In this document: positions 1 through 22,440 of the stretch, in pieces
Position numbering within the stretch: position 1 is the stretch's first letter
How the letters are laid out: the number at the start of each line of letters is the position of its first letter
Origin: a virus
DNA length: 22,440 nt
Virus record (IMG/VR): IMGVR_UViG_3300029787_000365
Span: 1 to 22,440 of that record
Reading direction: 5' to 3' (one strand)
The notes under the pieces: model-generated
What the model saw: the letters and a program-made list of their open reading frames with translations, nothing else
Database searches by the model: none
Told to the model about the DNA's origin: nothing
Position numbers and translations under genes: made by a program

Positions 1-3000
1 GATTTTAAAATTATTTCACCTGGATTTAACTATAAAAAACTTCCTAAATTTAAATCGGTTACTAGCACAAATGGTAGTAATGCAAATATTGTCGCTGTAT
101 CTACATCAATCGGTAGAATACAAGATGTTAGAATACTTGATATTGGATATGAATATTCATCTGATAAAACTCTAAGTCCAGAGGCATTTATATCACCAGT
201 AGTAAATATTGATAATCTTGATGTAATTAATTCTACAACTATTATTAAAGGTGGAAAAAATTATATTAATGCACCAAATTTAATTGTATTCAATCCAATA
301 AGCAATACATTAGTAAATGATTCATCTTTAGTTGCGATTGCACCTAATCAAACAATATCAGAAGTTAAAATTCTTGCACCAGTAACAGGATTAGATTCTG
401 TTAATCATTCTATAATTGCAATCAATAACTCAAATGGTGTTGGTATAAATTCAATACAATCTAGTTCATCTGGTTTAGTAACTTGTTTCCTTGAAACTCC
501 TATGAATGGTTTTGTAGATCCACAACCATTTGCTATTGGGGACGAAATATTTGTTGAGGGTATTCAAAGAATCGGTGAAACAGGTATTGGTGCTACACAA
601 GGAGGCATTTCAACAAATACTACGATTGAAGGTGATGGATTTAACTCTGAAAATTATAATTATCAATTTTTTACTATTGATGATTACATTGCTGGAACAC
701 AAGCGATTGTCAAATTTAGTTTAGCAGGTTTAACTACTAATACAGGTATTGCCAAAACATTCCAATCAGGATATGCAACTATAATTAATAAGCAAAATTA
801 TCCAACAATAGAACCAATACAAACAAGAGGTAAATTTGAATTAAATGAAAAGTTAATAATTGATGGTAAAATAACAGATTTATCAGTTGTTGAAATTAGA
901 GATGATTATATAAAAATTGATGGAAAATTTGAAATTAAAAAAGGTGATAGAATAACTGGTAGATTAACTAATGTTTCTGCTGAAATAACAAGTATTGTTG
1001 GAAATAAAGCAAAATTTAAAACAGATTTTTCAAATCGTCAAGAATATGGTTGGTTAGATGATATTGGTAAATTAAATCAAGATTATCAAGTAATACCAGA
1101 TAATGATTACTATCAAAATTTGTCTTACACAGTTAAAAGCACAATAGAATGGGATAAATTTGTAAATCCAGTAAATCGTTTAGTTCATCCTGCTGGATTG
1201 AAAAATTTTGCAGATACATCTGTAGAAAGTAAGGTATCAGTTGGTGTAGGAACCACAGCTCTGACAAAAGATTTGATTGTTCTTGATATAGCTAATATTT
1301 TGGGATTAGAAGATAAACAAAGAGTTGATGCTATCAATAATTTTGATTTCGCAACAGACTTTGATACAAGAACAAATAGATCTAAATTTGTAAATTTTTC
1401 CAATAAATCTTTAACAGATTTTTCAAGATGTAAAACAAACAGAGTATTAGTTCATGATGATATAAGCGGTAAGTTTTCAAGCACTGGTTTTCAAGAAAAT
1501 AATACTGTTATCGAAGAATTAACTGAGGACTATGCAAATTATTTAATTCAAATAATTGATCCAGATACTTTTGATACTCAATTTACAGAATTGATAGTTT
1601 TAACTACAACTGATGATGCTTATTTGCTTGAAAAAACAACTGATTTTACAACACTAGAACTCGGTGAATTTACAACAGAAATTACTTCTGGTGGAACTAA
1701 AAATTTAATATTTACACCTACTGAAGAATTCACAAAAGATCATGACATTAAAATTTTAAAAATTGATTTTAATACTGATTTAGTCGGTATAGCAACAAAT
1801 TCAATTGGAAATGTTGATTTGACTGGTGTTAATATTGGAGTAAGTAGTGCACCTTCTGGAATCACAACTGCTACAATAGCACAATTTTCAAAATCTGATT
1901 TTAATGGTCTCTATGCAAATATATTTGTTCAAGATAGCGTAACTAAAGAAACTAATTATAATGAAGTAATTATAGATTTTGATGGAACTGACACTACAAT
2001 ATCTCAAACATATTTTGATACTTTAGGTGGATTCAGTAATTCTTCTGTTGGAGTTATCACAGCAAGATATGAAAATGACTTTATCAAATTACAATGCGAA
2101 AATGATAGACTAAATTCACTTAATGTAAGAACAAATATAGTTGGATTAGGAACTACAACAGCTGGAATTGGAACTTATAGATTCTCAGTTAGTGGTCAAC
2201 CAACAGGAGCAGAAAGAAGTGCTAGATTAGAGTCTAATTATGTAACTGGAACAGCAAGCACGATTACATATGGAACAATTAGTAAAACTCTTGATAGTTC
2301 TGCAAAATCACTTATAAGAGTATCATGTGGTGAAACTTCAGCAATACATCAAATAGTATCAGTAAGAGACGCTGACGATATTTTAACTGTTCAATATCCT
2401 TTCGTATCTGCTGGTTCTACAACTGGTATAGGAACTTTTGGTGGTGAAATAGACGGATCTAATATAAATTTAAGATTTTATCCAGATTCTGAATTTACAT
2501 CATTAGTTGAAGTTCAAGCATTTAATCAGATATTTTATACAGAAAATGATTTCTCAAATGTTCCACCTGATTTAAACTATGGAACTGTTACTCAAAATTT
2601 ATTCTTATCAACATATGATGGTTTAAGTGGATTAAGAGCAAACAAAGTAGAATTTGATTTGAAATATGAAGGAACTCCAATATATTCCAAAACTTTTGAT
2701 CCGACAAATTCAGGGATATTAAGCACAACCACAGGTATATTTACAATACCAAATCATTTCTTTAATACAAATGAGCAATTAACTTACGCACCAGCATCAT
2801 CCTTTGTGGGAGTATCAGCTACTGCTGTATCAATTGGTGCAACAGCAAATGTTGCAGGAGTCGTCACTACAATATTACCAAGCACTGTTTTTGCAAAGGT
2901 AACAGATGAAAATACCTTCCAATTATTTACAAGACCAGAATATGTTTCATCTGGATCTGCTGTAACATTTACTGGAACTGGTTCTGGTAATTTACATAAA

Positions 3001-6000
3001 TTGTCAATGACCAAACAATTGTCAAAAACAATTATTGGTCTAGATGGTGTTGTTCAACAACCAATCACATTTACATCTATAACTCATACTTTTGGAGTCT
3101 TTGATGGATTCGCACATCAACCTACTATTGGTGTAGGAGTAACACAACTCATTCTAAGTGGAATATCTTCAATAACAACTTCAGATTTATTAAAGATTGG
3201 TGATGAGTTCATGTCAGTTACAGAAGTTGGTTTTTCAAGCACTCCTACTGGAACTATTAATGATGCAACTGATGTATCATTAGGTATTGCGACTCTGCCA
3301 TCTGTAAAAGTCACAAGAGGTCAATTAGGTATACCAGCAGCTGGTATATCTTCTGGAGCGAGTGTAAGGGTTCACAGAGGATCATTCAATATTGTTGATA
3401 GTAAAGTATACTTTACAGACCCACCAAAAGGAAATACAAGATCGAGAAAAGATGATACAAATTTACCATTTGTAAAAGCAGATTTTAGTGGTAGAACTTT
3501 CTTAAGAAGTAACTATACTACTAATATGTTATTTGATGATATATCAGATAATTTTACAGGTATTGGTAAAACATACACTTTAACTGTCGGTGGTGCAAAC
3601 ACATCATCTGGTATTGGAGTTGGTAATGGTGTTTTATTCATTAATGGTGTATTCCAAACTCCTTTAACAAGTAATAACACTGGAAATAATTATGAATTTA
3701 TTAGTGATACAACTGCAGGTATATCAACTGTTGAATTTACAGGTATTACCTCTGCAAATGGTAATTTCATCGTATCAGAATCTGATATAAATCAAAATCA
3801 AGTTCCTAGAGGTGGTATAATCATCTCATTAGGATCTACTGCAGGTCTTGGATATGCTCCTTTACAAGGTGCAAAGGTCAAACCATTCAAAAATGCTGCT
3901 GGTGGTATTACAAGTATTGTTGGTATAGGAACCTCTTCAGGTTTTAATATTGGAATACAAACTGCAACATATGATAATACATCAGGTATTATTACAGTCA
4001 CAACAAACAAAGTTCATGGTTTTGCATTAGAAAGACCTAATACTGTTAAATTAAAAAATCTAGAGTTTAGTTGCGTTGGTTATAGTGGTGTTACGACAAC
4101 CATATTCCAAGACCATGAAAGAGGTTTATTTGTAGTTGGTATTGTATCTGATAGAACATTTGAAGTTCAGGCAGGACCAAGCACAATAGCTCATACTTAT
4201 GTTGGTGGTGGAGAAGCTTATGAATTTTTCGGAGATCTCACTTTTGGTTCGGGATATCGTGGTGGTTCAGTTTCAATTGGTGTAACAGACCAAGCATATG
4301 TTCATAGATTTATAAGTGCTGGTATAAATTCAATTCGTAAGGGTAATTTTGCTGCCACAGGAGCAAATGCATTTACTGCTACAAATGCAACTTATACATC
4401 ACATACAGGAACTTTATTATTAACAATTCCAAATCATGGTCTTACAACAAGTGATACTGTTGGAATTGATACTGGTGGACTAGTATTTAAATGTTCAAAG
4501 GATAATTTCTTCTCAAATCATCCATATCCAAGGGCAGTATCTAAAACAAGTTTCCCTAACTCAGATCCTATTGCTGGTATTCAAACTGCAATTATTGCAA
4601 AAACTGATGATACTATCACACTTCAGGTAGGTGTTGGTGGAGGTGCTGGTAGTGGAGCAGTTGTTACTGCAACTGTCGGTGTAGGTGGAACACTAGCATT
4701 TAACATTGTTTCTGCAGGAACTAGCTATGTCAATCCAGAAATAATAATACCAGAACCATCATACAGTAATTTACCAGTTGTTGGTGTATCAAGACTAGGA
4801 GTTGGTCCAACAACTGATACTGGTTCTAATTTATTAATTGATGTTGAAGTTGGTGCATCAAGAACTACAGTTGGTATTGGTTCAACAACTTTCGAGATAT
4901 CAAATTTTAAAATATCAAGACCTGGACATTCATTTAAAATAGGTGATAAATTCAAACCAGTTGGATTAGTTACTGCAGCACATTTAACTTCACCAATTAA
5001 TGAGTTTGAATTAGAAGTTTTAAGAATATTCAATGATCAATTTTCTTCATGGCAATTTGGTGAGTTAGATTACATAGATGATATTAGGAATTTGCAAAAT
5101 GGTTCAAGAACCAAATTCCCATTATTCTTCAATGGACAATTATTGAGTTTTGAAAAAGACAAAACAAATTCACAATCACAACTTATTGATTTAGATGCAG
5201 TATTACTCATATTTGTAAATGGAGTATTACAAAAACCTGGTGAATCATATCAGTTCCAAGGAGGAACTACATTTACATTTACAGAAGCACCAACAGGAGA
5301 ATCATCACCTGGTGCAAATGATCATGATAATGTTGATATTTTCTTCTATAAAGGACAAGATGGAGTTGATGTAGATATTGTTGATATTTCAGAGTCAGTC
5401 AAAAGAGGTGATGAAATTAAAGTCATGAGAAGTCCTGTTGGTTTAACAACTGCACAGGAGAGTGAAAGAGTAGTTAAAGAAATTTTAGGTTCTAATTTAG
5501 TTGAAACAAATATCTATTCAGGTCTTGGAGTTGATGAAAATAATGAAAAACCAATTAGATGGACTAAACAAAAAGTTGATTTAATTGTAAATGGAGAAGT
5601 TATTGATAAATCAAGAGCATCCATTGAACCTCAAATATACCCAACAGCAAAAATTATTGGAAATTTAACTGAAACATCAGGTGCTACTGGAACAGGAGGA
5701 ATTTTTGTTGATAATGCTGAAGTATTTTTCTATGAAATGGGTGGTAAAGATGGACTTTATATACCAGCATCTGATAAGTATGGTGTTACTATCAATGAAG
5801 TAGACGCACTAATTTCATCTGGAAGTATCGGTGTAGGTGCTGCAGCAACTGCTATTGTATCCGCTGCTGGAACTATTTCATCAATTGATATAACAAGTGG
5901 TGGTTCAGGGTATTCTGGATTAATTGATATTGGTATTTCATCTCCAGTAGGGATTGAAAAAGTTGTTGGGGTTGGAACTACTGCTACCGCTACTGTAACA

Positions 6001-6666
6001 ATAACAAATGGTGCAATATCTGCTGCTACAATAGTAAATCCAGGTTTAGGTTATACATTTACCAACCCACCAAATGTTATTATAGAATTACCTACATTCC
6101 AAACTGAAAAAATTACATCTATTGATGATGTTGAAGGTTTTACTGGAATTATAACTGGGATTAGTTCAACAACCAATAGTGGACAAACCGCACTTAAGTT
6201 CTTCTTTAGAGCAACAAAAACTGCAAGTAGTTTATTGGTTGGTTATCCATTATTAATTAAGGATACTACAGTTGGAAGTGGTGTTGTCTCTGTAGATACT
6301 CACAATTCATCCGTGGTTGGTGTTGGAACAACATTCCTTGATAATGTTTATAAGGTTCATGCTATTTCAACTAACGGAGAAGACGGTGTAATTACTTGCA
6401 ACGTTCAGAATGGTTCAAATGTAAGTATTGCAGAAACTGGTTTCCATTATCCAACTGGTATTGGAACATCAAAATCATTGGGTCGATTAAGTTGGGGTAG
6501 AATATACAATGCTACTCGTTCTACTAGTCCAATTTCGATTGGAGTAACTGGATTGACAGTTAACTCAGGTTTGAATACCTTCCCAACAATTCAAAGGAAA
6601 AATTATACTGCAGCATCTTTAAGAGGTCTAAGATCTACTGGTGCAATAAGAGTATTTGGACTTTGA
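1..6666 (+). CDS. Giant virion structural protein at the gp7 position, 5'-truncated by the window edge
   Basis: The frame is open from base 1 with no stop, so the true start lies left of the window. The first ATG at 502 is inside the protein. The visible part is 2221 residues, over twice T4 gp7 (1032 residues), which occupies this place just before gp8. I see no clear sequence match to gp7, so a baseplate role is inferred from position. The protein is Gly/Thr/Ser/Ile-rich and repetitive. GxxY-type repeats lie at residues 1-130 and again near 1550-1590 and 1945-2035. Three copies of an NGVxQxP motif lie near residues 1012, 1214 and 1740. A TRGxxG module lies near 1065-1135. Many VGVGTT or GIGT turns are scattered throughout. 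Similar low-complexity giant proteins are common in marine T4-like phages. It ends 42 bases before the gp8 start, with a late promoter in the gap. It is probably a baseplate or tail-fibre-linking component. Confidence 0.8.
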   Translation, partial: DFKIISPGFNYKKLPKFKSVTSTNGSNANIVAVSTSIGRIQDVRILDIGYEYSSDKTLSPEAFISPVVNIDNLDVINSTTIIKGGKNYINAPNLIVFNPISNTLVNDSSLVAIAPNQTISEVKILAPVTGLDSVNHSIIAINNSNGVGINSIQSSSSGLVTCFLETPMNGFVDPQPFAIGDEIFVEGIQRIGETGIGATQGGISTNTTIEGDGFNSENYNYQFFTIDDYIAGTQAIVKFSLAGLTTNTGIAKTFQSGYATIINKQNYPTIEPIQTRGKFELNEKLIIDGKITDLSVVEIRDDYIKIDGKFEIKKGDRITGRLTNVSAEITSIVGNKAKFKTDFSNRQEYGWLDDIGKLNQDYQVIPDNDYYQNLSYTVKSTIEWDKFVNPVNRLVHPAGLKNFADTSVESKVSVGVGTTALTKDLIVLDIANILGLEDKQRVDAINNFDFATDFDTRTNRSKFVNFSNKSLTDFSRCKTNRVLVHDDISGKFSSTGFQENNTVIEELTEDYANYLIQIIDPDTFDTQFTELIVLTTTDDAYLLEKTTDFTTLELGEFTTEITSGGTKNLIFTPTEEFTKDHDIKILKIDFNTDLVGIATNSIGNVDLTGVNIGVSSAPSGITTATIAQFSKSDFNGLYANIFVQDSVTKETNYNEVIIDFDGTDTTISQTYFDTLGGFSNSSVGVITARYENDFIKLQCENDRLNSLNVRTNIVGLGTTTAGIGTYRFSVSGQPTGAERSARLESNYVTGTASTITYGTISKTLDSSAKSLIRVSCGETSAIHQIVSVRDADDILTVQYPFVSAGSTTGIGTFGGEIDGSNINLRFYPDSEFTSLVEVQAFNQIFYTENDFSNVPPDLNYGTVTQNLFLSTYDGLSGLRANKVEFDLKYEGTPIYSKTFDPTNSGILSTTTGIFTIPNHFFNTNEQLTYAPASSFVGVSATAVSIGATANVAGVVTTILPSTVFAKVTDENTFQLFTRPEYVSSGSAVTFTGTGSGNLHKLSMTKQLSKTIIGLDGVVQQPITFTSITHTFGVFDGFAHQPTIGVGVTQLILSGISSITTSDLLKIGDEFMSVTEVGFSSTPTGTINDATDVSLGIATLPSVKVTRGQLGIPAAGISSGASVRVHRGSFNIVDSKVYFTDPPKGNTRSRKDDTNLPFVKADFSGRTFLRSNYTTNMLFDDISDNFTGIGKTYTLTVGGANTSSGIGVGNGVLFINGVFQTPLTSNNTGNNYEFISDTTAGISTVEFTGITSANGNFIVSESDINQNQVPRGGIIISLGSTAGLGYAPLQGAKVKPFKNAAGGITSIVGIGTSSGFNIGIQTATYDNTSGIITVTTNKVHGFALERPNTVKLKNLEFSCVGYSGVTTTIFQDHERGLFVVGIVSDRTFEVQAGPSTIAHTYVGGGEAYEFFGDLTFGSGYRGGSVSIGVTDQAYVHRFISAGINSIRKGNFAATGANAFTATNATYTSHTGTLLLTIPNHGLTTSDTVGIDTGGLVFKCSKDNFFSNHPYPRAVSKTSFPNSDPIAGIQTAIIAKTDDTITLQVGVGGGAGSGAVVTATVGVGGTLAFNIVSAGTSYVNPEIIIPEPSYSNLPVVGVSRLGVGPTTDTGSNLLIDVEVGASRTTVGIGSTTFEISNFKISRPGHSFKIGDKFKPVGLVTAAHLTSPINEFELEVLRIFNDQFSSWQFGELDYIDDIRNLQNGSRTKFPLFFNGQLLSFEKDKTNSQSQLIDLDAVLLIFVNGVLQKPGESYQFQGGTTFTFTEAPTGESSPGANDHDNVDIFFYKGQDGVDVDIVDISESVKRGDEIKVMRSPVGLTTAQESERVVKEILGSNLVETNIYSGLGVDENNEKPIRWTKQKVDLIVNGEVIDKSRASIEPQIYPTAKIIGNLTETSGATGTGGIFVDNAEVFFYEMGGKDGLYIPASDKYGVTINEVDALISSGSIGVGAAATAIVSAAGTISSIDITSGGSGYSGLIDIGISSPVGIEKVVGVGTTATATVTITNGAISAATIVNPGLGYTFTNPPNVIIELPTFQTEKITSIDDVEGFTGIITGISSTTNSGQTALKFFFRATKTASSLLVGYPLLIKDTTVGSGVVSVDTHNSSVVGVGTTFLDNVYKVHAISTNGEDGVITCNVQNGSNVSIAETGFHYPTGIGTSKSLGRLSWGRIYNATRSTSPISIGVTGLTVNSGLNTFPTIQRKNYTAASLRGLRSTGAIRVFGL

Positions 6667-6708: not shown

Positions 6709-8298
6709 ATGTCGGCAATTGTTACTGACCAATTTAGAATTCTGAACGCAAATAATTTTGTAGAATCAGTAGAAAATACGAATAATTCATACTATGTTTT
6801 TGCAGGATTATCAAATCCAGCAGGATCAGGAACTTTAGTGGGTTACGGTAGATCTTCAAATTGGAATTCAATCACACCACCACCAACAGATAGTTTTTCA
6901 TATAGATCTCATACTGGTGATACCATGATGTTTGGTAAAAAAGTATCATCAGCAAATATAAGAAGGATAATAAGAAGAGTTGATTGGGTATCTGGAAATA
7001 GATATGAAATTTATAGAGATGACTATAGTGCCTCAAATCCAAGTCCATTAACCGCTGCAAATAGATTATATGATGCAAACTACTACGTTCTTAATTCCGA
7101 CTTCAAAGTTTACATTTGTATTGATAATGGTTCAACAGGAACTAACCCGCTTGGAAATGTGTCTCAAGATGAACCCACATTTACAGACTTAGAACCATCT
7201 AAAGCAGGTAATAGTGGAGATGGATTTATTTGGAAATATTTGTTTACAGTCTCTCCTAGCGATATTATTAAATTTGATTCTACTGAATTCATAACAGTTC
7301 CAAATAATTGGTCTTCAAGCACTGATTCACAAATAAGAGCAGTTCGTGAAAATGGTGATTCTTCTGTAAATCTAAATCAAATAAAACATGTTTATATTGA
7401 AAGTGCTGGTAGTGGATATGCAAATGGATTAAGTCAAGAAGTTGATATCATAGGAGATGGAACTGGTGCAAAAGCAAGAGTAGATGTTGTTAATGGTGCT
7501 ATAACAGATGTCATTGTTAGTGCTGGTGGAAAAGGTTATAGTTATGCTTTAGTTGATTTAGGAACTTTAAATAGCAATGTAAGTGCAACTGGAAGAGCAA
7601 AATTAATTCCTATCTTACCACCAGGTTTGGGTCATGGCACAGATGTTTATACTGAATTAGGAACTGATAGAGTAATTGTTTATGCTAGATTTGACGATTC
7701 TACTAAAGATTTTCCAATTGATACTAAATTTGCACAGGTTGGTATTGTAAAAAATCCAACTAAGGTTGGAACGTCTGTAACCTACACTGACAACACTTAT
7801 TCTTCACTTCAAGCAGTTAAATTTAGCAGTGTAACTGGAACTCCACAAGTTGGTGAGGAAATAAAACAAGTTTTAACCATATCCCCTAATACTGGAAAAG
7901 TTGCTACTGGTTTTATTGCTTCATATGATATTGAGACTAAAGTTCTAAAATATTTTAAAGATAGGTCTCTTAATTTTAATAGAACAACTTATGATCAAAC
8001 AGATTATACTGGTATATCCACAACTGGAAGATCGTATCAATTTGAATCTGATAGTAATGCCAATGATATAAAAGGTGCCACATCCACATTTTCTGGTTCA
8101 ATATTTTCTAATTTTTCAGGCATTACAACAAACCCAACTGGTAACAAATTAATAAATTTAGAAACTAACTTTGTTTCAGGGTTATCTGATTCAGAGATAA
8201 ATAAAGGGTCAGGTGAAATAGTCTACTTAGATAATAGACCTTTGATTGTTAGAAACTCTCGACAAAAAGAAGACATTAAAATCATACTAGAATTCTAA
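6709..8298 (+). CDS. 8: Baseplate wedge subunit gp8
   Basis: gp8 is a structural subunit of the T4 baseplate wedge, which surrounds the hub and carries the tail fibres. Both ends match T4 gp8. The N-terminus has IVTDQFRILNANNF, then SNWNS, TPPPTDS and the WKYLF segment near residue 177, which corresponds to YVWEYLFEIPP of T4. The C-terminus GEIVYLDNRPLIV followed by EDIKIILEF corresponds to GEMIYMENRPPII and EINILFTF. The protein is 529 residues against 334 in T4. The excess falls in two insertions. One, near residues 222-285, carries paired GxGY repeats. The other, near residues 385-500, lies between the conserved VGIVKNP segment and the C-terminal motif. The gene follows a late promoter and ends one base before the next ATG, so the two are probably coupled. 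Confidence 0.9.
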   Translation: MSAIVTDQFRILNANNFVESVENTNNSYYVFAGLSNPAGSGTLVGYGRSSNWNSITPPPTDSFSYRSHTGDTMMFGKKVSSANIRRIIRRVDWVSGNRYEIYRDDYSASNPSPLTAANRLYDANYYVLNSDFKVYICIDNGSTGTNPLGNVSQDEPTFTDLEPSKAGNSGDGFIWKYLFTVSPSDIIKFDSTEFITVPNNWSSSTDSQIRAVRENGDSSVNLNQIKHVYIESAGSGYANGLSQEVDIIGDGTGAKARVDVVNGAITDVIVSAGGKGYSYALVDLGTLNSNVSATGRAKLIPILPPGLGHGTDVYTELGTDRVIVYARFDDSTKDFPIDTKFAQVGIVKNPTKVGTSVTYTDNTYSSLQAVKFSSVTGTPQVGEEIKQVLTISPNTGKVATGFIASYDIETKVLKYFKDRSLNFNRTTYDQTDYTGISTTGRSYQFESDSNANDIKGATSTFSGSIFSNFSGITTNPTGNKLINLETNFVSGLSDSEINKGSGEIVYLDNRPLIVRNSRQKEDIKIILEF

Positions 8299-11200: not shown

Positions 11201-14200
11201 ATACCATCAAAACAATTATTAATAATATTTGATCAATATCAAGTGGCAAGTGGAAACACTGGTGATTTCTTCTCAGTAAATTCATACACAAAAGAGAGAT
11301 ATTCAAATGATATACCATTTGTAGGCAATCGTAGAGCAACTGATATTATTGATTTAAGACCAAGAGTTAATTCATTTACTGTAACAAATACATCCAAATC
11401 TCCATTTGCATTTACAAGTAGAAGTTTTGAGTCAACAAATCCATTTGTTGTAACACCCAACGAAAGTTCAATTTTAGGATATAGTTACTATCTACCTAGA
11501 ATTGATAAATTGGTTATTAATCAATATGAAGAAGTTAAATTAATAAAGGGGGAATCATCTGAGGAACCAGTCCCACCAACTGAGGTTGGAAATTCTATGG
11601 AGATTGCTGAAATATCCCTACCACCATATCTTTTCAATACTGTTAAAGCACCTAATATTAGGATGTATGATAATAAAAGATTCACAATGAGAGATATTGG
11701 TGCTCTTGAGAAAAGGATAGAAAATTTAGAATTAACAACTTCTTTAAGTGCTTTAGAAGTCAGCACACAATCTTTAGAAGTTAAAGATGCAGATGGACTT
11801 AATAGATTTAAAACAGGATTTGTTGTTAATAATTTTTCAGACAGAAACTTTATTGATTTTTCAAGAGAGACAGGTTCACGATGTGATGTTGATGTAATTA
11901 ATAAAGAATTAATTAGTGCTGTTGATTTTTGGTCAATCAATCCAGAACTTGCGTTAAATCCAAGTATTGATATTGATGCTGCTGATTTAAACTCTAATTT
12001 ACAACTATTAGATACTAATTGTAAAAAAACTGGTGACTTAATCACATTAAATTACACTGAAGTAGATTGGTTAGAGCAACCTCAAGCAACTGAAGTAGAA
12101 AATGTTAACCCGTTTAATGTCATTGTATTCATGGGTGGTATTATTCTCGACCCTCCTTCAGATAATTGGACAAGAACGATATATCTTGAAACTGATAGAG
12201 TTGAGTCTAGTGGGGCAACATGGGCAGAAGTTGCGACTGAAGAAGTGCTTGGAACTATAAACGAATCTCCTCTAGAATCAACTGATGGTAGTTTGGTTGT
12301 AAGAGACATTCAAGATCCAGATTATAATACTTATAGAAGAAGAATAAGAATTGTTAAAAGATTAACTGCTCAAACTCAAGAAATTAGAAAATCATATCAA
12401 AATGTTTTACAAGGTCCTAGTCATGAATTTGATTATGTTGAAAGTGTTAAAGTAACAAGTGAAGTAGATCCATTCATGCGTTCTAGAAACGTATTCTTCA
12501 ATGCAAATGGTTTAAGACCACTTACAAAACATTATCATTATCTTGATAATGGTGTACCTGATATTGTTCCAAAATTAGTTGAAATAACTATGTCATCTGG
12601 AACTTTCAATGTATTTGAAAATGCAAAGATTGAAATTAACGGTGAGCAAATTGGATTTATGAGAATACAAAAACCAAATCATAAATTTGGTGATTCTTCA
12701 AGACCAGATGTAGGAGCTGGTTTAGGATCTCCATCGGTTTTAGTTGAAGAATATACTGTTGATCCATATGATAATACAAGACCAGCTCCCTCAGACACAT
12801 ATTCTGCAACATCAAAACTTTTAAATATTGATTCAATATCGTTAGCAAATGTAGAAAAATATTATGGATATGTTGTTAAAGGTGCAAAAATTACTGGAGA
12901 ACAAAGTGGAGCAGTCGCAACTGTAAGTAGTATTGATTTATTCAGTGATAATTGGGGAGATTTACTCGGAGCATTCTTCTTCAGAAATCCAAATACAACA
13001 CCAAAACCACCAACTGTATTTTCAACAGGAACGAAAACATTTAGAGTTACAGCAGCACCAGAGGGCACTATACCAGTTCCTGGCAGCACTGAACATGCTA
13101 GTGATGCATCTGGTGTATTTACAGGAACAGGAACCATACAAACCACTGTAACATCTAATGTAGCAGTTAGAAATCCACCCCCTCCTTCAGGAACTCGTCA
13201 AAGTGAAATAACTCAAAGAACTAATTTAATTTATAAAGAGGAAGAGCAAAAATACTATGCTCCTCACAGAGATCCATTAGCTCAATCATTTACTGTTGAT
13301 GAAACAGGTGCATTCTTATCATCATTTGATGTATACTTCAAATCAAAAGATCCATTAGCAAAATTATTTGTTGAATTAAGAGAAGTTGAATTAGGAACTC
13401 CTACAAGATTCTTAGTTCAAGATTATGCACAGATAGCAGTTAACCCAAATAATATTAATATCTCTGATGATGCATCTGTAGCAACCACTCTTAGTTTTTC
13501 ATCACCAGTCTATCTTGAACCCGAAAAAGAATATGCTTTAGTATTCTTATCACCTGCTTCAGACAAGTATGAAATGTGGGTTGCAACAATGGGTCAAAAG
13601 ACAGTCAGAACTACGAATCTTCCTGATGTTCAAAATGTTGTGGTATCAAAACAATATATTGGTGGTAGTTTATTCAAATCACAAAATGGAACAATATGGA
13701 CTGCAAGTCAGTATCAAGACTTGACTTTCAAATTACGTAAGGCATCATTTGTTGATTCTGGTTCTACTACATTTTATAATACTCCAGTTGAAGCTGGTAA
13801 TTTAAATACACAAGTATTATCTCAAAATCCAATACACACATTACCTAGAAAACAAATAGTAAAACTTACTAGTGCTGGTGCTAACCAAGCAAACCTTCCA
13901 ATTGGTAGAAAAGTAAGCACAGGTGCTGCTGGTGATGCAGAAGATGTAAGTGTTACTGGTATTATTGAAGGAAGAGGTGCACCAATATCATCTAATTCAT
14001 CCTTTAATATTATTACAAGAGGTTCTGGATATGAATTAACAAATTCTAATAATATTCCTCTCAAATCACTTACAGGTAGTGGAACTGGTGCTCAGTGTTC
14101 AGTTTCATTGACAGATGGAATTGTAGATTCAAATGGTATTAGTAATTTGACACTTGGAACAGGTTATCAAGTTGGAGAAGTTCTTACTATTGATAATAGT

Positions 14201-15745
14201 GATGCAAAAGTATTGAGAGGTTCTGGATTTAAATTAGTTGTAACAACTATAAGTAACACACTTGATACATTATTCCTTACAGATGTTCAAGGAGACATAT
14301 TCCCAAATACTGAAACTTTAATTCAATATGGTGCAAGTAACAATTCAAGAACTGTAGTATCACCTGCGACGACAGTAAATGGTAACTCAACCACAAATGG
14401 TGATTTATATTCTGGTAAGGTAATTGAAGTTACCCAGTATAATCATGCTCATCATGGTGCGACTAATCAAGTTGAAATCAAAAACGTTAAACCAGATACT
14501 ACTTTGGTTCCAACTTTAGCTGCCTTAACTGCAGAAGGAACGTCTGTATCACTTGGTAATACTTCACCATTCAATAGTTTTGGTGGAATTACAACAGACA
14601 GAGGTGAAGCATTAATAGGAGAAGAAATTGTATCTTATGTAGTGGGAACTGGTCAACTTACACTAACCAGAGGTATTTTAAATACCACTGCTACTACACA
14701 TGATGTTGGTGCAACAATTCAAACTTATGAGGCAAGTGGAATGCCATTAGTTGGTATTAATACAACATTCACAGTTCCAACCAATACAACATTGAAAAAT
14801 TCTTCAAATATTGATAATTATTACCTTGAAGTTAATGTAGGTGGTATTGCACCGACAAGAACAGGAAAAACACTTTTATGTTTCTCTAATGAAAAAGCAG
14901 TTGGTGGGAATGATGTTAAAATATCACAAAACCATCAATTTAGTTCAATAAATCCACAGTTTAATGTTATTACACCTGGTAGCACTACTCGTGTGAATTC
15001 AACTATTAGAACTATTAGTGGAACTAGTGCAAACGGAAGTGAAATTTCATTTATAGATCAAGGATTTGAACCAGCAGTATTAAATCAAACTGTATTCTAT
15101 CCAACTCCAAGACTAGTAGCATCAAAACTTAATGAAAATGTAAAACTTACAAGTTTACCAAAAAATAAATCACTCACTCTTAATGTAGATATGAGTTCGA
15201 CTGATTCAAACTTATCACCTGTTTTAGATGTTAAGAATGCAACATTTATTTTAGGTAGGAACAAAATCAACAATCCGATTGGAATCGATAATTATTCTAC
15301 TGATAATAAAACTACTCAATTAGAAGATGATCCTCACGGTTCTATATTTGTATCGAAAAGAGTGAATTTAAAGCAACCAGCAACTTCTTTAAAAGTTTTA
15401 GTTGGTGCAAGTGTTCAACCTGAAGCAGATTTTAGAGTTTTCTATAGATTGTTTAGTGAAGACTCAACTGAAGTTTCACAAACTTACAGAGCATTTCCAG
15501 GTTATAAAAATATGAATGATATTGATGGTGATGGATTTGGTGATGAAATTATTGATTTAAGTCAAAATGATGGTAGAGCTGATGCATTCGTATCACCAAA
15601 TCAGTTTGATAGATTCTCAGAATATCAATTCTCAGTTGATAATTTAGAACAGTTTAGTGGTTTTGTGATAAAAATTGTTATGATATCTACCAATGAATCA
15701 TATCCTGTGAGAATCAAAGACTTTAGAGCAATCGCATTAGCATGA
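8300..15745 (+). CDS. Giant DUF4815-type baseplate/tail virion protein
   Basis: This 2481-residue protein begins with a hallmark of DUF4815 phage virion proteins: ISPYYDDFD, FKPGYPVQARELTGLQS, LLQNQVESFG, then an IPGG turn near residue 65. A second hallmark, MRDIGALEKRIENLEL, lies near residue 1130 and is probably a short coiled coil. A third, HRDPLAQSFTVDETGAF followed by a beta-rich region, lies near residues 1656-1720. Linking stretches contain repeated SGA-type modules (near residues 103, 491, 879 and 1528), a GxGY repeat pair near 1900-1960 and a TRG module near 2100-2150. A DxDGDGxGD calcium-loop-like motif lies at 2407-2419. There is no signal peptide or membrane segment. Its place after gp8 suggests the gp9/gp10 region of T4, hence a baseplate-fibre connector, but I see no direct match to those proteins. 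The next gene overlaps it by four bases. There is no evident ribosome site, so translation is probably coupled to gp8. Confidence 0.85.
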   Translation: MPQKTNLNISPYYDDFDKANNFYKILFKPGYPVQARELTGLQSLLQNQVESFGKHIFKEGSMVIPGGIEYDPTYFSAKINSTHLGVDVSVYLSEIIANNSGKGTRVRGQSSGIVATIKNFILPPEEGVDEITIFIKYNQSGNDGESTAFPDGEVLILEDNLTYGNTTLNIEETVLTLVSENATATGSAFGVNKGVYFMRGIFVDVPTSLIVLEPYSTTPSYRVGFEILEEIVNANDDSSLYDNAKGFTNFAAPGADRFKITVKLTKKALQDYEDTNFVELFRTTNGETKKLQDSTVYSELKKYFAKRTYDESGNYSVEPFRVNCQNSLNDEVGSGGLYTENQLTDKGNTPTDDLMCYKLSAGKAYVRGFDVYLPGTTVVDVEKPRDTKTIKVASIPFNMGSLVKLNHVIGSPFVNIGGTNTNVVQLYNQRRGATTAGTNGIQIGEARVYSFGVSDAPYSGTTTEWDLHLYDIQTFTILKCNVLTNAGDKVAGTRIRGLASGAIGYLAKNANATGVNELAVSQTTGAFINGEQLIFNEKTSTENASIVEVLQYTTDDIKMVYQDTFGTTGISTFAADTKLYDRVLPSFSLTDQLNVINTSAQVNNRNFAGVGIKTDTIIAFNNGIANDPHFNRISNISSNGKTLTLSSTNTVAGINNGAVLSGVSTSSTFRIKVPKIINTDSGIFSKLPRQVISNVDTSGSNLIISKQIVGQNVSSKSLSINSQSAFDASVGITSVFFEPFDAEKYSITYQDGSIETLTSDQVTISDNGNVVSFSGLKETTASQVVVNTTLKKVGASSKSKDYLRSQQLSVTRTSGVNTLNGLSIHDGYGVRVEDREISLNVPDVVKILAVYESKSNAVPVLDALTFVSGLSLNTNAIVGEKIVGKDSRAVGQIVSAPSATEIRFVYLNANKFTIGEVIEFKESAIESILQQVEIGNFIDRTNNYILDKGHKIQYCDFSKIVRKAKSAIPSKQLLIIFDQYQVASGNTGDFFSVNSYTKERYSNDIPFVGNRRATDIIDLRPRVNSFTVTNTSKSPFAFTSRSFESTNPFVVTPNESSILGYSYYLPRIDKLVINQYEEVKLIKGESSEEPVPPTEVGNSMEIAEISLPPYLFNTVKAPNIRMYDNKRFTMRDIGALEKRIENLELTTSLSALEVSTQSLEVKDADGLNRFKTGFVVNNFSDRNFIDFSRETGSRCDVDVINKELISAVDFWSINPELALNPSIDIDAADLNSNLQLLDTNCKKTGDLITLNYTEVDWLEQPQATEVENVNPFNVIVFMGGIILDPPSDNWTRTIYLETDRVESSGATWAEVATEEVLGTINESPLESTDGSLVVRDIQDPDYNTYRRRIRIVKRLTAQTQEIRKSYQNVLQGPSHEFDYVESVKVTSEVDPFMRSRNVFFNANGLRPLTKHYHYLDNGVPDIVPKLVEITMSSGTFNVFENAKIEINGEQIGFMRIQKPNHKFGDSSRPDVGAGLGSPSVLVEEYTVDPYDNTRPAPSDTYSATSKLLNIDSISLANVEKYYGYVVKGAKITGEQSGAVATVSSIDLFSDNWGDLLGAFFFRNPNTTPKPPTVFSTGTKTFRVTAAPEGTIPVPGSTEHASDASGVFTGTGTIQTTVTSNVAVRNPPPPSGTRQSEITQRTNLIYKEEEQKYYAPHRDPLAQSFTVDETGAFLSSFDVYFKSKDPLAKLFVELREVELGTPTRFLVQDYAQIAVNPNNINISDDASVATTLSFSSPVYLEPEKEYALVFLSPASDKYEMWVATMGQKTVRTTNLPDVQNVVVSKQYIGGSLFKSQNGTIWTASQYQDLTFKLRKASFVDSGSTTFYNTPVEAGNLNTQVLSQNPIHTLPRKQIVKLTSAGANQANLPIGRKVSTGAAGDAEDVSVTGIIEGRGAPISSNSSFNIITRGSGYELTNSNNIPLKSLTGSGTGAQCSVSLTDGIVDSNGISNLTLGTGYQVGEVLTIDNSDAKVLRGSGFKLVVTTISNTLDTLFLTDVQGDIFPNTETLIQYGASNNSRTVVSPATTVNGNSTTNGDLYSGKVIEVTQYNHAHHGATNQVEIKNVKPDTTLVPTLAALTAEGTSVSLGNTSPFNSFGGITTDRGEALIGEEIVSYVVGTGQLTLTRGILNTTATTHDVGATIQTYEASGMPLVGINTTFTVPTNTTLKNSSNIDNYYLEVNVGGIAPTRTGKTLLCFSNEKAVGGNDVKISQNHQFSSINPQFNVITPGSTTRVNSTIRTISGTSANGSEISFIDQGFEPAVLNQTVFYPTPRLVASKLNENVKLTSLPKNKSLTLNVDMSSTDSNLSPVLDVKNATFILGRNKINNPIGIDNYSTDNKTTQLEDDPHGSIFVSKRVNLKQPATSLKVLVGASVQPEADFRVFYRLFSEDSTEVSQTYRAFPGYKNMNDIDGDGFGDEIIDLSQNDGRADAFVSPNQFDRFSEYQFSVDNLEQFSGFVIKIVMISTNESYPVRIKDFRAIALA

Positions 15746-15985: not shown

Positions 15986-16213
15986 ATGGCAGATATCAAA
16001 GTCAGAGTTGGACAACAAAATGCTACAAAGGTGATTTCATCTCTGGCAGGTTCCCAAACTCTATCATTATCAGAATTAAGCGATGTAAATGCTTCCGTTT
16101 TATCAAATGGAATGGTATTAGTATATAATGGTGTGACGAAAAAATTTGACGCAACGTTGGAGTTGACTCCAGGTGCAGCACAGAACTTAGACATCAACGG
16201 GGGTAACTTTTAA
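15986..16213 (+). CDS. Small virion-associated protein preceding the fibre gene
   Basis: This 75-residue protein contains LSELSDVNASVLSNGMVLVYNG followed by KKF. This is a short pattern (LSDVN, then GxxLVYNGxTxKF) that recurs in phage fibre and tail proteins as a repeat or linker. It ends in DINGGNF, which resembles the LDGGTF end of the downstream fibre-like protein. The stop codon overlaps the next start as TAATG. The early part (MADIKVRVGQQNATKVIS) is compact and may form beta structure. It is probably a small structural or fibre-associated protein. The exact role is unknown, and it lies first behind the late promoter at 15950. Confidence 0.75.
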   Translation: MADIKVRVGQQNATKVISSLAGSQTLSLSELSDVNASVLSNGMVLVYNGVTKKFDATLELTPGAAQNLDINGGNF

Positions 16214-17919
16214 TGGCCAGTATTATTAGAATCAAACGATCCTCTGGTACTACAAAACCAGGTAGTTTGAATTGGGGTGAAATGGCATATGTAACTGGTA
16301 TAGGCAGTTACGGTGGTACAAATCAATATAAGGATAGAGTATTTCTTGGAGATGACGGAACAAACGTCAATCCAATAGCAGGACACTATTATACTTCTAT
16401 GATGGAGCACACACCTGGTGCTTTAGCAGGTGTGGCTAATTCAAGAAATAGTGATGGTGGTATTGTAGCAATACTTGATAGTAGTAGAAAAATAGATGTA
16501 TGGAATGTAGATAATATTACTTTAGATACAAATACAATATCTTCAACTGATACTGATGGTGATTTAATTTTAAATCCTAATGGTTCTGGTGAGATAATGA
16601 TTCCTGATGATACCTTCTTAGGTTTCGGTGGTGGAGCAAATGGAACAGCAGCATCAGATTCAAAGATTGAATATGATGAAAATGGAACAGATAAGTTAAC
16701 ATTTACAGGTGCTGATGTAAGATTTAATATCGCTACTCAGTCAACAACAAAAGATACAGGTGCTATAATAGTTGAAGGTGGTGTTGGTGTTGAGAAAAAT
16801 GTAAACATTGGTGGTAACTTAGTAATTGGTGGTGGATCTGCTGTTCTTGGTAAAATTTCAGTTGCAGATAATGTTATTTCATCACTAGGTAATTCAGATA
16901 ACAAGATATTCATTGACCCATTCCCAGATGGATTAAGTAATGAAGGTGATGTTATCATCAAAGGTAACTTACAAGTTGATGGTACGACTACTACAGTTAA
17001 CTCAACACAGACAACTGTAAATGATCCAATCATGATGGTTGGTGACACTACCAGCACAAGAACTGTAATGGTAACAGTTCAATCAGGTGTTTCTACAGTT
17101 ATTATTGATCAAGTAACAGGTATTGCAGTTAATGATACTCTATTACATTCAAGTTTCTCAGCAAGTGGTATTACAACTGTCACAGCGATAAACACTGGTG
17201 CAAAAATGCTTACCTTCCAAGGCACAACTGTTGCTGGAATAAGCACACAAACTACATTCTCAGTTGTACATGCAACAGATACCAATACTGACCGTGGACT
17301 TGGATTTACATATAATACTGGTATCGGAACTGCAAACTCAACCGATGGTTTCTTTGGACTAGATGATAGTTCAATCGCATCTAGCACAGCAGGAACAGGG
17401 AATCACGGTACACACGGTGATAATAGTCGTAGGTGGACTTATGTTCCTGATGCAACCATATCTGCTAGTGTTGTAACTGGTACAAAAGGTTTCTTAGATA
17501 TTAAAGGTATCTACTATCAGTCAGGTAACTTTGCTTCAGGTGGTGTAGTTTGGTTTGATGACACAGGTTTGCAGAGGTCTACAAATGCTCCACAAACTCC
17601 AGTTACTACTTCAAAGCAAATATTAACTGCAATAACTAAAATAGCATTAAGTTCTTTGAGTGCTGCTATCACTGCATCTGCTGGTGATATCATAAAACAA
17701 GATGGTTCAGGTGCGTTTGGTGTGGTTGAAACTGGAGTCAGTGGTGCTACAGCAGTGAATTTAATTGGAGTTGAAGGAACATTTAATACATCTGGAAACT
17801 TAAGAAGAGAAGGTGTTAGTGGTGCAATAGCAAACTTATCATCAGTTCCTGCTGCTGCAACAAGTGTATATGTAAATAAACCACATTGGACTTCGACCCT
17901 TGATGGAGGAACTTTCTAA
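16213..17919 (+). CDS. Fibre-like virion structural protein
   Basis: The protein has 568 residues. The N-terminus (IRIKRSSGTTKPGSLNWGE, then MAYVTG and VFLGDDG) resembles the N-terminal fold seen in many phage fibre and tropism proteins, where a GELAY segment is followed by a glycine-rich IGDG turn. Around residues 176-212 there is a DTGAIIVEGGVGVEKNV repeat with IGGNLVIGG, and around 251-270 a GNLQVDGTTTTVNST segment. Both are common beta-repeat elements in marine T4-like phage fibre proteins. The C-terminus is STLDGGTF. The gene occupies the place where T4 has gp12 and the whisker protein wac, before gp13, but I see no specific match to either. A strong GGGGG ribosome site lies at 16199-16203. 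The stop codon directly abuts the next ATG. A short-fibre or whisker-like role is an inference. Confidence 0.75.
   Translation: MASIIRIKRSSGTTKPGSLNWGEMAYVTGIGSYGGTNQYKDRVFLGDDGTNVNPIAGHYYTSMMEHTPGALAGVANSRNSDGGIVAILDSSRKIDVWNVDNITLDTNTISSTDTDGDLILNPNGSGEIMIPDDTFLGFGGGANGTAASDSKIEYDENGTDKLTFTGADVRFNIATQSTTKDTGAIIVEGGVGVEKNVNIGGNLVIGGGSAVLGKISVADNVISSLGNSDNKIFIDPFPDGLSNEGDVIIKGNLQVDGTTTTVNSTQTTVNDPIMMVGDTTSTRTVMVTVQSGVSTVIIDQVTGIAVNDTLLHSSFSASGITTVTAINTGAKMLTFQGTTVAGISTQTTFSVVHATDTNTDRGLGFTYNTGIGTANSTDGFFGLDDSSIASSTAGTGNHGTHGDNSRRWTYVPDATISASVVTGTKGFLDIKGIYYQSGNFASGGVVWFDDTGLQRSTNAPQTPVTTSKQILTAITKIALSSLSAAITASAGDIIKQDGSGAFGVVETGVSGATAVNLIGVEGTFNTSGNLRREGVSGAIANLSSVPAAATSVYVNKPHWTSTLDGGTF
17905..17910 (+). 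promoter_or_regulatory. Strong ribosome binding site (GGAGGA) for the 58-residue gene
   Basis: GGAGGA lies nine bases before the ATG at 17920, inside the last codons of the fibre-like gene (the DGG residues). It is the best Shine-Dalgarno match in the window and supports translation of the small gene that follows. Confidence 0.7.
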
Positions 17920-18947: not shown

Positions 18948-20363
18948 ATGGCATTAAATCCATATTTTCTACAAGGTTCACAGGCAGAACAAAGGTTAGT
19001 TCAGAATCTTATAAATGAACAACTTAAAATTTATGGTGTAGAAGTAACATATATTCCAAGAAAATATGTTAACACAGAATCAATAATAGAAGAAGTAACG
19101 ACATCAAAATTTGATGATAACTTTCAAATAGAAGCATATGTAAACACATATGATGGATATGCAGGTGCAGGAGATGTTTTAACTAAGTTTGGTATGAGTT
19201 TAAGAGATGAAGTTACTCTTACAATATCAAGAGAAAGATTTGAAGATTTTATTTCACCTTTTATGAATGCTGATGATGACATTGAGTTGTCATCTCGACC
19301 TCGTGAAGGTGATTTAGTATTTTTTCCATTAGGACAAAGATTATTTGAAGTCAAGTTTGTAGAACATGAAAATCCTTTTTACCAATTAGGTAAGAACTAT
19401 GTTTATGAACTGAAATGTGAACTCTTTGAATATGAGGATGAAGTTATTGATACTTCAATTGATGCAATTGATACTCAGGTTGAAGATGAAGGATATATTG
19501 CAAATCTTCAACTTGTTGGAGTTGGTAGAACTGCAACTGCATCTGCAATTGTTAATAGTGGTTATATTCGTGAAATATTCTTAAATAATGATGGGTCAGG
19601 GTTTACAGGAACTCCTATAGTTTCAATAAGCACATCTCCCTCTGGTTTATCTGGTTCTAATGCTACAGCAGTTGCATTTACAACATCAAGAACAAATATC
19701 ACATCTGTTGAAAAAATATTATTAACGAATGCTGGTTTTGGTTATACAGAGGCACCTACAATTACATTCTCAGGTGGTGGTGGAACTGGAGTCGCTGCTA
19801 CTTGTTCAATTAATACTGCAACGAATGGTATTATTAGATTTGTTATTAATGATACTGGTGTTGGATATGGAACTGCACCAACAGTAACAATTCCAGTTCC
19901 AAATGCTGGTGTTGCATCTGATAGAGCTACTGGTATTGCATCCATTGGTATTGACCCATCAAGTGGATTTAATCGTGTTAATTCAATCTTTGTATCTAAT
20001 CCTGGTGCAGCGTATACATCAGCACCTTCTGTTACAATATCTGACCCAGAGACTATTAGTGGAATTGGAACATATCATTTCAATGAGGTTGTTCAAGGAA
20101 TGCGTTCAGGAACTCAAGCAAGAGTTAAGAATTGGGATTATGATACTAAAATACTTAAAGTTGGTAATGTTGGAATTGGAACCACTACGACAGGATTCTT
20201 CTCTGGTGAAGACATTAAAGGACTTACTTCGGGTGCAATATTCAGTGTTTCTACATTTGATGAGGATAATACTACCGATAAATACAATGAAGGTGATATA
20301 TTTGAGTCAGAAGCAGACTTGCTTATTGACTTTTCAGAATCAAATCCATTCGGGAGTTTTTAA
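18948..20363 (+). CDS. 14: Neck protein gp14 with a large repeat insertion
   Basis: gp14 is the partner of gp13 in the head-tail neck. The N-terminal 165 residues match T4 gp14 throughout: YGVEVTYIPRKYV, YVNTYDGYAGAGD, FGMSLRDEVTLTIS, EGDLVFFPL and ENPFYQLGKN correspond to segments of the T4 protein. The end, FSESNPFGSF, resembles FESSPFDNDF. T4 gp14 has 256 residues and this protein has 471. The extra block, about residues 185-441, lies between the two conserved parts. It contains four or five beta-rich GxGYxxxPxVxI repeats followed by two SGA-type modules. The repeats share their pattern with those in gp8 and in the giant left protein. gp14 is followed directly by the ATG of a small gene. 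Confidence 0.93.
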   Translation: MALNPYFLQGSQAEQRLVQNLINEQLKIYGVEVTYIPRKYVNTESIIEEVTTSKFDDNFQIEAYVNTYDGYAGAGDVLTKFGMSLRDEVTLTISRERFEDFISPFMNADDDIELSSRPREGDLVFFPLGQRLFEVKFVEHENPFYQLGKNYVYELKCELFEYEDEVIDTSIDAIDTQVEDEGYIANLQLVGVGRTATASAIVNSGYIREIFLNNDGSGFTGTPIVSISTSPSGLSGSNATAVAFTTSRTNITSVEKILLTNAGFGYTEAPTITFSGGGGTGVAATCSINTATNGIIRFVINDTGVGYGTAPTVTIPVPNAGVASDRATGIASIGIDPSSGFNRVNSIFVSNPGAAYTSAPSVTISDPETISGIGTYHFNEVVQGMRSGTQARVKNWDYDTKILKVGNVGIGTTTTGFFSGEDIKGLTSGAIFSVSTFDEDNTTDKYNEGDIFESEADLLIDFSESNPFGSF

Positions 20364-20573
20364 ATGGGATATCCAAAACCTTATAAAATACCATATGATC
20401 CTTGGTTTGATTACAACATTCCAGCAGCAATAAATGATGCTTTACAATGTTGGATAGCAACTGAAGATACAGCAAAGTGGACAACTGAAGTTGATGAAAC
20501 TGTACATTCTAAAATGTATGATTTAGCAACAGAAAGTGGTTTGCTATTAGGTGGATCGGAGTTATTAACGTAG
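20364..20573 (+). CDS. 69-residue protein of unknown function between gp14 and gp15
   Basis: The gene starts directly after the gp14 TAA. A GGGAG ribosome site at 20352-20356, seven bases before the ATG, supports the start. The protein opens with a Pro/Tyr-rich segment (MGYPKPYKIPYDPWFDY) and then looks mostly helical, with two tryptophans (CWIATED, AKWTTEVDE). It has no signal peptide, membrane segment or known catalytic motif. T4 has no gene between 14 and 15. I do not recognise a family. Its tight place in the neck cluster suggests a small virion or assembly protein, which is inference only. Confidence 0.72.
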   Translation: MGYPKPYKIPYDPWFDYNIPAAINDALQCWIATEDTAKWTTEVDETVHSKMYDLATESGLLLGGSELLT

Positions 20574-21741: not shown

Positions 21742-22440
21742 ATGGCGAAGACTTCCTGTAAGAAGGGACAATACTACTGCAACACTGACCAAAAGTGTAA
21801 ACCTATTCCTGATGGATATAGTGTTCGTGCTGATGGAATTCTTGTCAAAGAAGATAAGCATGGTGATCACGAACCAGAAATGATTCGTAGTCAATTGAAA
21901 ACTGCAGGTAGAGCATCTAAACGTATTGAAAAACATTCACGTAAGAAAGAAAATTTCAAAGCGTGGGTGCAATCAAAGATAACTAAGGCATCTGATTACT
22001 TAGATACTGCTGCAGATTATCTTGATGGTAAAGATGATGTTAAAGAAGGTTCACTTCGTAAATGGTTTAAGGGTTCTAAATCCAAAGACGGTAAAGGTGG
22101 ATGGGTTAATGTAACCACAGGTGGAACTTGTGCAAGTGATGAACCAGGTGAGGGAGTACCAAAATGTGTATCTCGTTCTAAATATGAGAGTATGACTCCT
22201 GCAGAAAGAAGATCTGCATCTAGAAGAAAGAAAAGTAAAGATAAAGGTCAGCAATCAAAAACTAGTGCTGCAAAACCAACTTATGTTTCAACTGATAAAC
22301 CTAAAAAGAAAATGAAAGAAGAATTTATTTCACTACCACTTCAACTTGAAGTTCCACAAAACGATGGAGAGTTTAAATTAGGTCTGATGTTCCGTGAGAG
22401 TTTAGAACAAAATCGTGGTATGCTCTTCGTATTTGAAAAT
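21742..22440 (+). CDS. Mosaic phage protein, Cys-rich start and DUF192-like end, 3'-truncated by the window edge
   Basis: This frame is open from the ATG at 21742 to the window edge (233 residues visible) and carries good coding content. Residues 3-20 are Cys-rich (SCKKGQYYCNTDQKCKPIP). Residues about 42-90 are helical and charged, with WVQSKITKASDYLDTAADYL, a segment type I recall from several marine T4-like phage proteins. Residues about 100-160 hold LRKWFKGSKSKDGKGGWVNV with two further cysteines and a basic RRSASRRKKSKDK run. This resembles a small phage domain (possibly DUF6321). The last 40 residues match the start of DUF192 (LGLMFRESLEQNRGMLFVFE). The gene lies where T4 has gp17, so it is an extra gene between gp16 and whatever follows. 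No function can be assigned. Confidence 0.75.
   Translation, partial: MAKTSCKKGQYYCNTDQKCKPIPDGYSVRADGILVKEDKHGDHEPEMIRSQLKTAGRASKRIEKHSRKKENFKAWVQSKITKASDYLDTAADYLDGKDDVKEGSLRKWFKGSKSKDGKGGWVNVTTGGTCASDEPGEGVPKCVSRSKYESMTPAERRSASRRKKSKDKGQQSKTSAAKPTYVSTDKPKKKMKEEFISLPLQLEVPQNDGEFKLGLMFRESLEQNRGMLFVFEN

Follow-up and report, generated by a model that had tools for sequence, protein, structure and literature searches.

A GxGY repeat module in the gp14, gp8, gp7 and DUF4815 proteins of a marine T4-like phage

We analysed a stretch of viral DNA, hereafter the window, which is the whole 22,440-base IMG/VR record IMGVR_UViG_3300029787_000365 and whose gene content corresponds to the tail-neck block of marine T4-like phages (Kyanoviridae). 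Four of its proteins, namely gp14 of the neck, the baseplate wedge protein gp8, the giant protein at the left end (gp7) and a DUF4815 protein, carry a GxGY repeat, and all four were detected by a profile made from unrelated organisms. In gp14 each unit is laid out as strand A (GxGATATA), strand B (GxIxxIxLxN), a GxGYxxxP turn and a short strand C. Judged from these comparisons, the copies almost certainly represent one shared module. It is nameless in every protein-family library searched, and we regard it as a surface module to which two solved domains are probably related.

Repeat units in gp14 and copies in three other proteins

A sequence-only reading of the window had proposed that the repeat recurs in tandem in gp14 and also occurs in the three other proteins. 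Residues 190-365 of gp14 (window 19515-20042) indeed form four tandem units of ~42 residues each, scoring 37-50 bits each with a mixed profile. The FLNNDG loop of unit 1, before the first glycine of the motif, is conserved at 96%; the corresponding values are 73% over the array and 86% over the core. The parts of gp14 are as follows.

18948..19481, + strand: neck core, residues 1-178; T4-like, no repeat; Pfam T4_neck-protein (PF11649), 8.6e-34, residues 3-175
19515..19631, + strand: unit 1, residues 190-228; 49.9 bits; FLNNDG loop, conservation 0.96
19632..19772, + strand: unit 2, residues 229-275; 47.9 bits over 234-275
19773..19895, + strand: unit 3, residues 276-316; 36.6 bits, match at 276-315
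19896..20042, + strand: unit 4, residues 317-365; 47.8 bits, match at 322-365; most variable unit, mean pairwise identity 0.535
20058..20258, + strand: small beta-barrel around the array, residues 371-437 (probably plus strand 184-190); AlphaFold2 model, moderate confidence

The copies in the other proteins were located as listed below, and the positions given for them by the sequence-only reading proved correct to a few tens of bases.

7363..7557, + strand: gp8 copy, residues 219-283, two units; profile-profile 94-95%, PHROG cross-hits
1..300, + strand: gp7 residues 1-100, diverged units, GGKNYINAP motif near residue 82; profile-profile 90% (41-120), PHROG gp14 family 1.7e-4
4639..4749, + strand: gp7 residues 1547-1583, one weak unit; profile-profile 90%, 9.1 bits with the bacterial hidden Markov model (HMM)
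5821..6087, + strand: gp7 residues 1941-2029, two units; profile-profile 97.8%, 21-23 bits with the bacterial HMM
13985..14254, + strand: DUF4815 protein residues 1896-1985, diverged copy; profile-profile 95%, PHROG 1.5e-5 and 2.3e-4, gp8 family 0.0047

By the simplest check set for the sequence-only reading, a profile built from one protein should find the copies in the others above background. A gp14-only HMM gave a borderline outcome, with 11.7 bits for the giant protein and 7.5 bits for gp8 next to a shuffled-control maximum of 10.5, and for gp8 and the DUF4815 protein the scores lay too near the shuffled controls. As the gp14-only profile is too narrow for the other proteins, we used an independent profile, made only from bacterial proteins and one Escherichia coli phage sheath with zero marine-phage sequence, together with profile-profile comparison. 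Against a control maximum of 6.7 bits, the best of the shuffled and reversed control proteins, the independent HMM gave 16-28 bits for gp14, 21-23 bits for giant-protein residues 1944-1972 and 1992-2028, 17 bits for gp8 residues 251-278 and 9 bits for giant-protein residues 1550-1578. The DUF4815 copy was missed by this single-sequence HMM search; its detection, and that of the first two giant-protein segments, needs profile-profile comparison. When 156 windows of the proteins were scanned in that way, the highest values were obtained for residues 1921-2040 of the giant protein (97.8%), gp14 (95-98%), DUF4815 residues 1881-2000 (95%), gp8 residues 201-320 (94-95%) and giant-protein residues 41-120 and 1521-1600 (90% each), windows partly overlapping a copy gave 16-57%, and all remaining ones gave at most 7%.

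Family-to-family matches in PHROG connect the same proteins. The gp8 insert matches the families of gp14 (1.2e-5) and gp7 (5.9e-7), the C-terminal copies of the giant protein match the gp14 (5.5e-7) and gp8 (3.2e-5) families, residues 1-140 of the giant protein match the gp14 family (1.7e-4), and the DUF4815 copy matches the gp8 family (0.0047) and another baseplate family (2.3e-4). No clear match to other families was noticed in a PHROG scan of window 4600-4870, which holds the weak gp7 unit.

Since the units are short and glycine-rich, and the other proteins score with the gp14-only HMM close to shuffled sequence, we asked how far the similarity might be a chance product of Gly-rich, beta-prone sequence in copies that are unrelated. 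This is extremely improbable. With the independent profile, every copy stands apart both from the remaining windows and from 685 null comparisons, in which reversed or column-permuted profiles of the same composition never rose above 19%, and the order A, B, GxGY, C is retained across phyla. Chance similarity was rejected on the strength of these nulls.

Distribution of the module and its insertion in gp14

Prochlorococcus phage P-SSM2, among the closest annotated relatives (gp14 identity 64%), has the same gene order as the window: gp7, gp8, DUF4815 protein, small genes, gp13, gp14, gp15. This order and a match to phrog_2885 identify the giant left protein as gp7, of which the window encodes the C-terminal 2,221 residues, the remainder being cut off by the contig end. 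We then surveyed 160 marine loci with a unit threshold of >=10 bits. Units were found in gp14, gp8, gp7, the DUF4815 protein and one unassigned open reading frame (ORF; L089), probably a further piece of gp7, and none in gp13 (0/75) or in the protein at 16213-17919 (0/69). Four units were present in 79 of 80 related gp14 proteins, the remaining one (L076) having six. The gp14 of L076 (L076:3476-4264) thus carries two extra units, which would fit the gain of a single two-unit domain.

In pelagiphage HTVC008M, filed in the same virus family, units occur in gp8 and in the protein at the gp7 position; its gp14 is without the array and without the barrel, the core and C-terminal tail being kept, and T4 gp14 has zero units. 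As both lack it, the gp14 array looks, on sequence grounds, like an insertion in the cyanophage branch. The window gp14 otherwise matches the T4 gp14 structures (PDB 9mkb, 1e-26; 9lu4). The window gp8 likewise matches the Pfam family of the T4 gp8 baseplate wedge (PF09215, 3.8e-14) in its conserved N- and C-terminal parts, and hhalign aligned it with T4 gp8 at 97%, the repeat region and middle part having no T4 counterpart.

Marine T4-like phages are not the only carriers of the repeat, a point beyond the sequence-only reading, and it is widespread in bacterial proteins. Bacterial and archaeal genomes searched with the gp14 arrays gave at least 27 contigs encoding it, mostly in large, extracellular-looking proteins. 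Those of Planctomycetota, Verrucomicrobiota, Acidobacteriota and others have the same unit and motif, and a profile built from them finds the phage copies; they differ in being longer (up to 17 motifs) and in lying in large non-virion proteins. The module is also present in phage tail-fibre families. Two further kinds of virion protein carry about two units each of the same repeat as an insert, namely the tail sheaths of Jilinvirus (E. coli phage ep3; Pfam Phage_sheath_1, ~145-230) and a tail-tube protein in a Pseudomonas metagenome-assembled genome (MAG; Phage_TTP_11, ~137-214). They differ from the window copies in host protein and phage type, and both inserts gave strong profile matches to the gp14, gp8 and gp7 families in PHROG. 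The tail-tube protein (L179:3467-4267) is lambda-like and probably encoded by a prophage gene.

The sequence-only reading held that the repeat has spread as a module, and this is well supported: the proteins are otherwise unrelated, and the insert is absent from the gp14 of HTVC008M and T4 and present in a sheath and a tail-tube protein. The interpretation given there as a whole is partly supported.

Lambda gpV and T4 Hoc are examples of immunoglobulin-like (Ig-like) domains on phage virions. The module behaves like such promiscuous domains, which are small beta domains exchanged between unrelated virion proteins and found in sheath and tube proteins (PMC9230969), yet it is built of repeats, has the GxGY motif and matches no Ig family: among the matches of 37 arrays and 13 diverse copies (E-value up to 1) there was no Pfam Ig or Big family, and no NCBIfam model matches it either. 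A query made of an invented consensus gave no phage matches and was probably masked as low complexity.

Some observations concern how these proteins are labelled. In the HTVC008M record, the 1,016-residue protein at the gp7 position (I899_gp055; L292:33435-36485) bears the name head closure Hc2, which belongs to the gp14 family, although gp14 has a gene of its own; its repeat units are the probable cause of that name. The gp7 and gp8 copies of the window are matched by phrog_3465, which is likewise called head closure Hc2. A protein of ~7,000 residues beside gp6 in S-MbCM6 (AFD02696.1; L165:1512-10423) is deposited as gp8 baseplate wedge and may be gp7. HTVC008M also has annotated curli genes (CsgF, CsgG, CsgB) and an outer membrane porin (L292:7562-9557, 28040-28897).

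A second possible shared module, GExIxGxxSGAxAxV, corresponds to the small gp14 barrel (window 20058-20258) and is weakly common to the same proteins, with matches at residues 361-490 of gp8, 561-760 of the giant protein and 81-170, 441-530 and 801-930 of the DUF4815 protein (profile-profile 38-79%, versus a median of 0.5% over all windows). Elsewhere in the window, the last gene (21742-22440), truncated by the contig end, encodes the beginning of a DUF192 domain at its C terminus, and a leucine-rich 176-codon ORF in another frame, overlapping the end of gp14 (19903-20433), is probably no gene.

Predicted fold and solved relatives

In an AlphaFold2 model of the whole gp14 the barrel part was of moderate confidence and the neck core poorly modelled. 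According to this model, a single small barrel may be built from strand 184-190 together with residues 371-437, with the array inserted inside it; the best VIA match of the barrel was the JBD30 baseplate protein 491-559 (Z 6.5, 66 residues, 2.7 A). As the structure search with whole gp14 was dominated by this barrel, the array was folded alone, giving a predicted local distance difference test score (pLDDT) of 91.7 and a predicted template modelling score (pTM) of 0.81.

VIA re-alignment of the array placed T4 gp18 99-186 on top, over 72 residues at 2.8 A and with Z 5.8, a value below 8, which can reflect a common arrangement and to that extent counts against kinship. The next rows were antibody and T-cell receptor domains at Z 4.0 and below. 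Domain I of T4 gp18 consists of a barrel of six strands and a helix (PMC3004832), and a match to it is what would be expected if two three-strand units form one domain. Two units of the repeat thus probably make one six-stranded domain. The VIA alignment starts at residue 23 of the array and residue 99 of gp18; provided that no gap occurs there, GSGF of gp14 falls on GSNY of gp18, which has a second GxNY motif (GKNY) 41-42 residues further on that is not conserved in T4 relatives. Domain I (8.5e-5) and the window gp8 copy (0.0015) also match the same stretch of phrog_26741. Two further results tell against a common origin: Foldseek, run with the whole gp14 model and with the array alone, returned no PDB match at E<=0.001, and hhalign of domain I against the repeat was not significant. 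On balance we consider homology of the module to T4 gp18 domain I (98-188; PDB 3foa, 3j2m, 9mkb) likely, as it is an inserted beta domain, the top structural match and a sharer of the phrog_26741 stretch; it differs in being a single domain in a sheath, with an extra helix and a diverged motif. Domain I (L193:10828-11100) also matches phrog_9703, labelled head decoration, at 0.0019 (0.0017 for the T4 relative L210), a sequence match that hints at a similar domain on a capsid.

A sequence search of the PDB with the gp14 arrays found nothing, and only a diverse alignment reached Dpo31, the tail spike of marine podovirus Carin-1 (PDB 28lx, 28mg, 8ck1). With the diverse repeat profile, a search of the whole PDB gave Dpo31 450-514 at E 0.004, over two motifs. 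This match lies inside the D3* domain (434-536), and the reverse search from D3* reached the gp14 family at 3.1e-4. D3* is an inserted, protruding domain (PMC13317679), like the module in these respects; it differs in being one domain on a trimeric depolymerase spike, which its authors call Ig-like. With sequence matches in both directions, homology of the module to D3* appears highly probable. The Dpo31 paper makes no mention of gp18 (PMC13317679). In the literature searched, with most subscription journals outside its scope, we found no earlier statement of a link between gp18 domain I, D3* and the repeat, no paper on the motif letters and none on repeat domains in cyanophage structural proteins.

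Candidate role and meaning of the module

T4 gp18 domain I points outward and takes no part in contacts between sheath subunits; it binds the baseplate and the long tail fibres in their retracted state, and the gp18 changes G106S, S175F and A178V block fibre retraction (PMC3004832). These three residues agree with the gp18 sequence if Met1 is left out of the numbering, and not otherwise; G106 is then the first Gly of GSNY. Because of this fibre binding, its mutants and the conserved FLNNDG loop of gp14, a docking surface is the most likely role, and by analogy we tentatively favour docking as the main one. Surface decoration, which had been suggested from the sequence, fits the two solved relatives, both of which protrude, and may hold for the gp14 array. 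In T4, the part of gp14 that follows residue 178 lacks order until the tail is joined, when it becomes bound to gp15 (PMC12270204); an insert in this part could therefore plausibly lie on the outer side of the head-tail joint.

We propose a promiscuous beta-rich surface module of ~42 residues per unit, two units of which would make one domain like gp18 domain I and D3*. In gp14 a four-unit array, probably two domains, forms an insert together with a small beta-barrel, with the neck core on one side and the C-terminal tail on the other, and further copies sit in gp8, gp7 and the DUF4815 protein. The domains would point away from neck and baseplate and may offer the loops at their turns as surfaces on which retracted fibres or other appendages dock, in the way that gp18 domain I receives the long tail fibres of T4. 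The computations show the repeat, its homology between the proteins, the gp14 insertion and the predicted fold, whereas the pairing of units, the outward placement and the docking are inferred. Taken as a whole, this explanation seems to us about evenly balanced between right and wrong. It is weakened by the P-SSM2 marine gp18, which has no unit, so that the docking role would have had to move, and by the bacterial proteins with long arrays, which have no fibres to dock.

Sugar binding had also been suggested, and glycan binding is a live rival because D3* sits on a polysaccharide depolymerase spike. The module would then be a weak glycan-binding domain touching host-surface polysaccharide, as proposed for phage Ig-like domains, and its presence in tail-fibre families and in the extracellular-looking bacterial proteins is in keeping with that. 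However, D3* bears a very faint resemblance to sugar-binding domains (DALI Z 2.9; PMC13317679), the neck is a long way from the host surface when the virion first meets its host, and the positions conserved across copies are structural-looking Gly, Tyr and Ala. We consider this role unlikely, though worth keeping in view; by analogy with T4, fibre docking has the better precedent.

A passive spacer or bulk domain, tolerated on virion surfaces and cementing or shielding without a specific partner, would account for an array more variable than the core (pairwise identity 0.63 versus 0.81), for the varying number of units and for the occurrence of the module in many unrelated proteins. It accords poorly with the nearly invariant loop of unit 1, with the specific phenotype of point mutations in T4 domain I (PMC3004832) and with the retention of four units in nearly all sampled gp14 proteins, and we think it rather less likely still. 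The docking proposal has a bolder form, in which marine T4-like phages moved T4 fibre docking from the sheath (gp18 domain I) to neck and baseplate, and the gp14 arrays would form a collar of six double domains and, jointly with the copies in gp7 and gp8, hold folded fibres or other appendages via the conserved NNDG loop; this we regard as a long shot.

If the proposed relationships are true, one promiscuous module unites T4 sheath domain I, Dpo31 D3*, the coliphage sheath and tail-tube inserts and the cyanophage neck and baseplate repeats, and the cyanophage repeats would gain a testable fold and a candidate role. The module may also mislead annotation, as its units likely did for the HTVC008M protein labelled Hc2, and a named domain model would allow it to be mapped over phages and bacterial surfaces.
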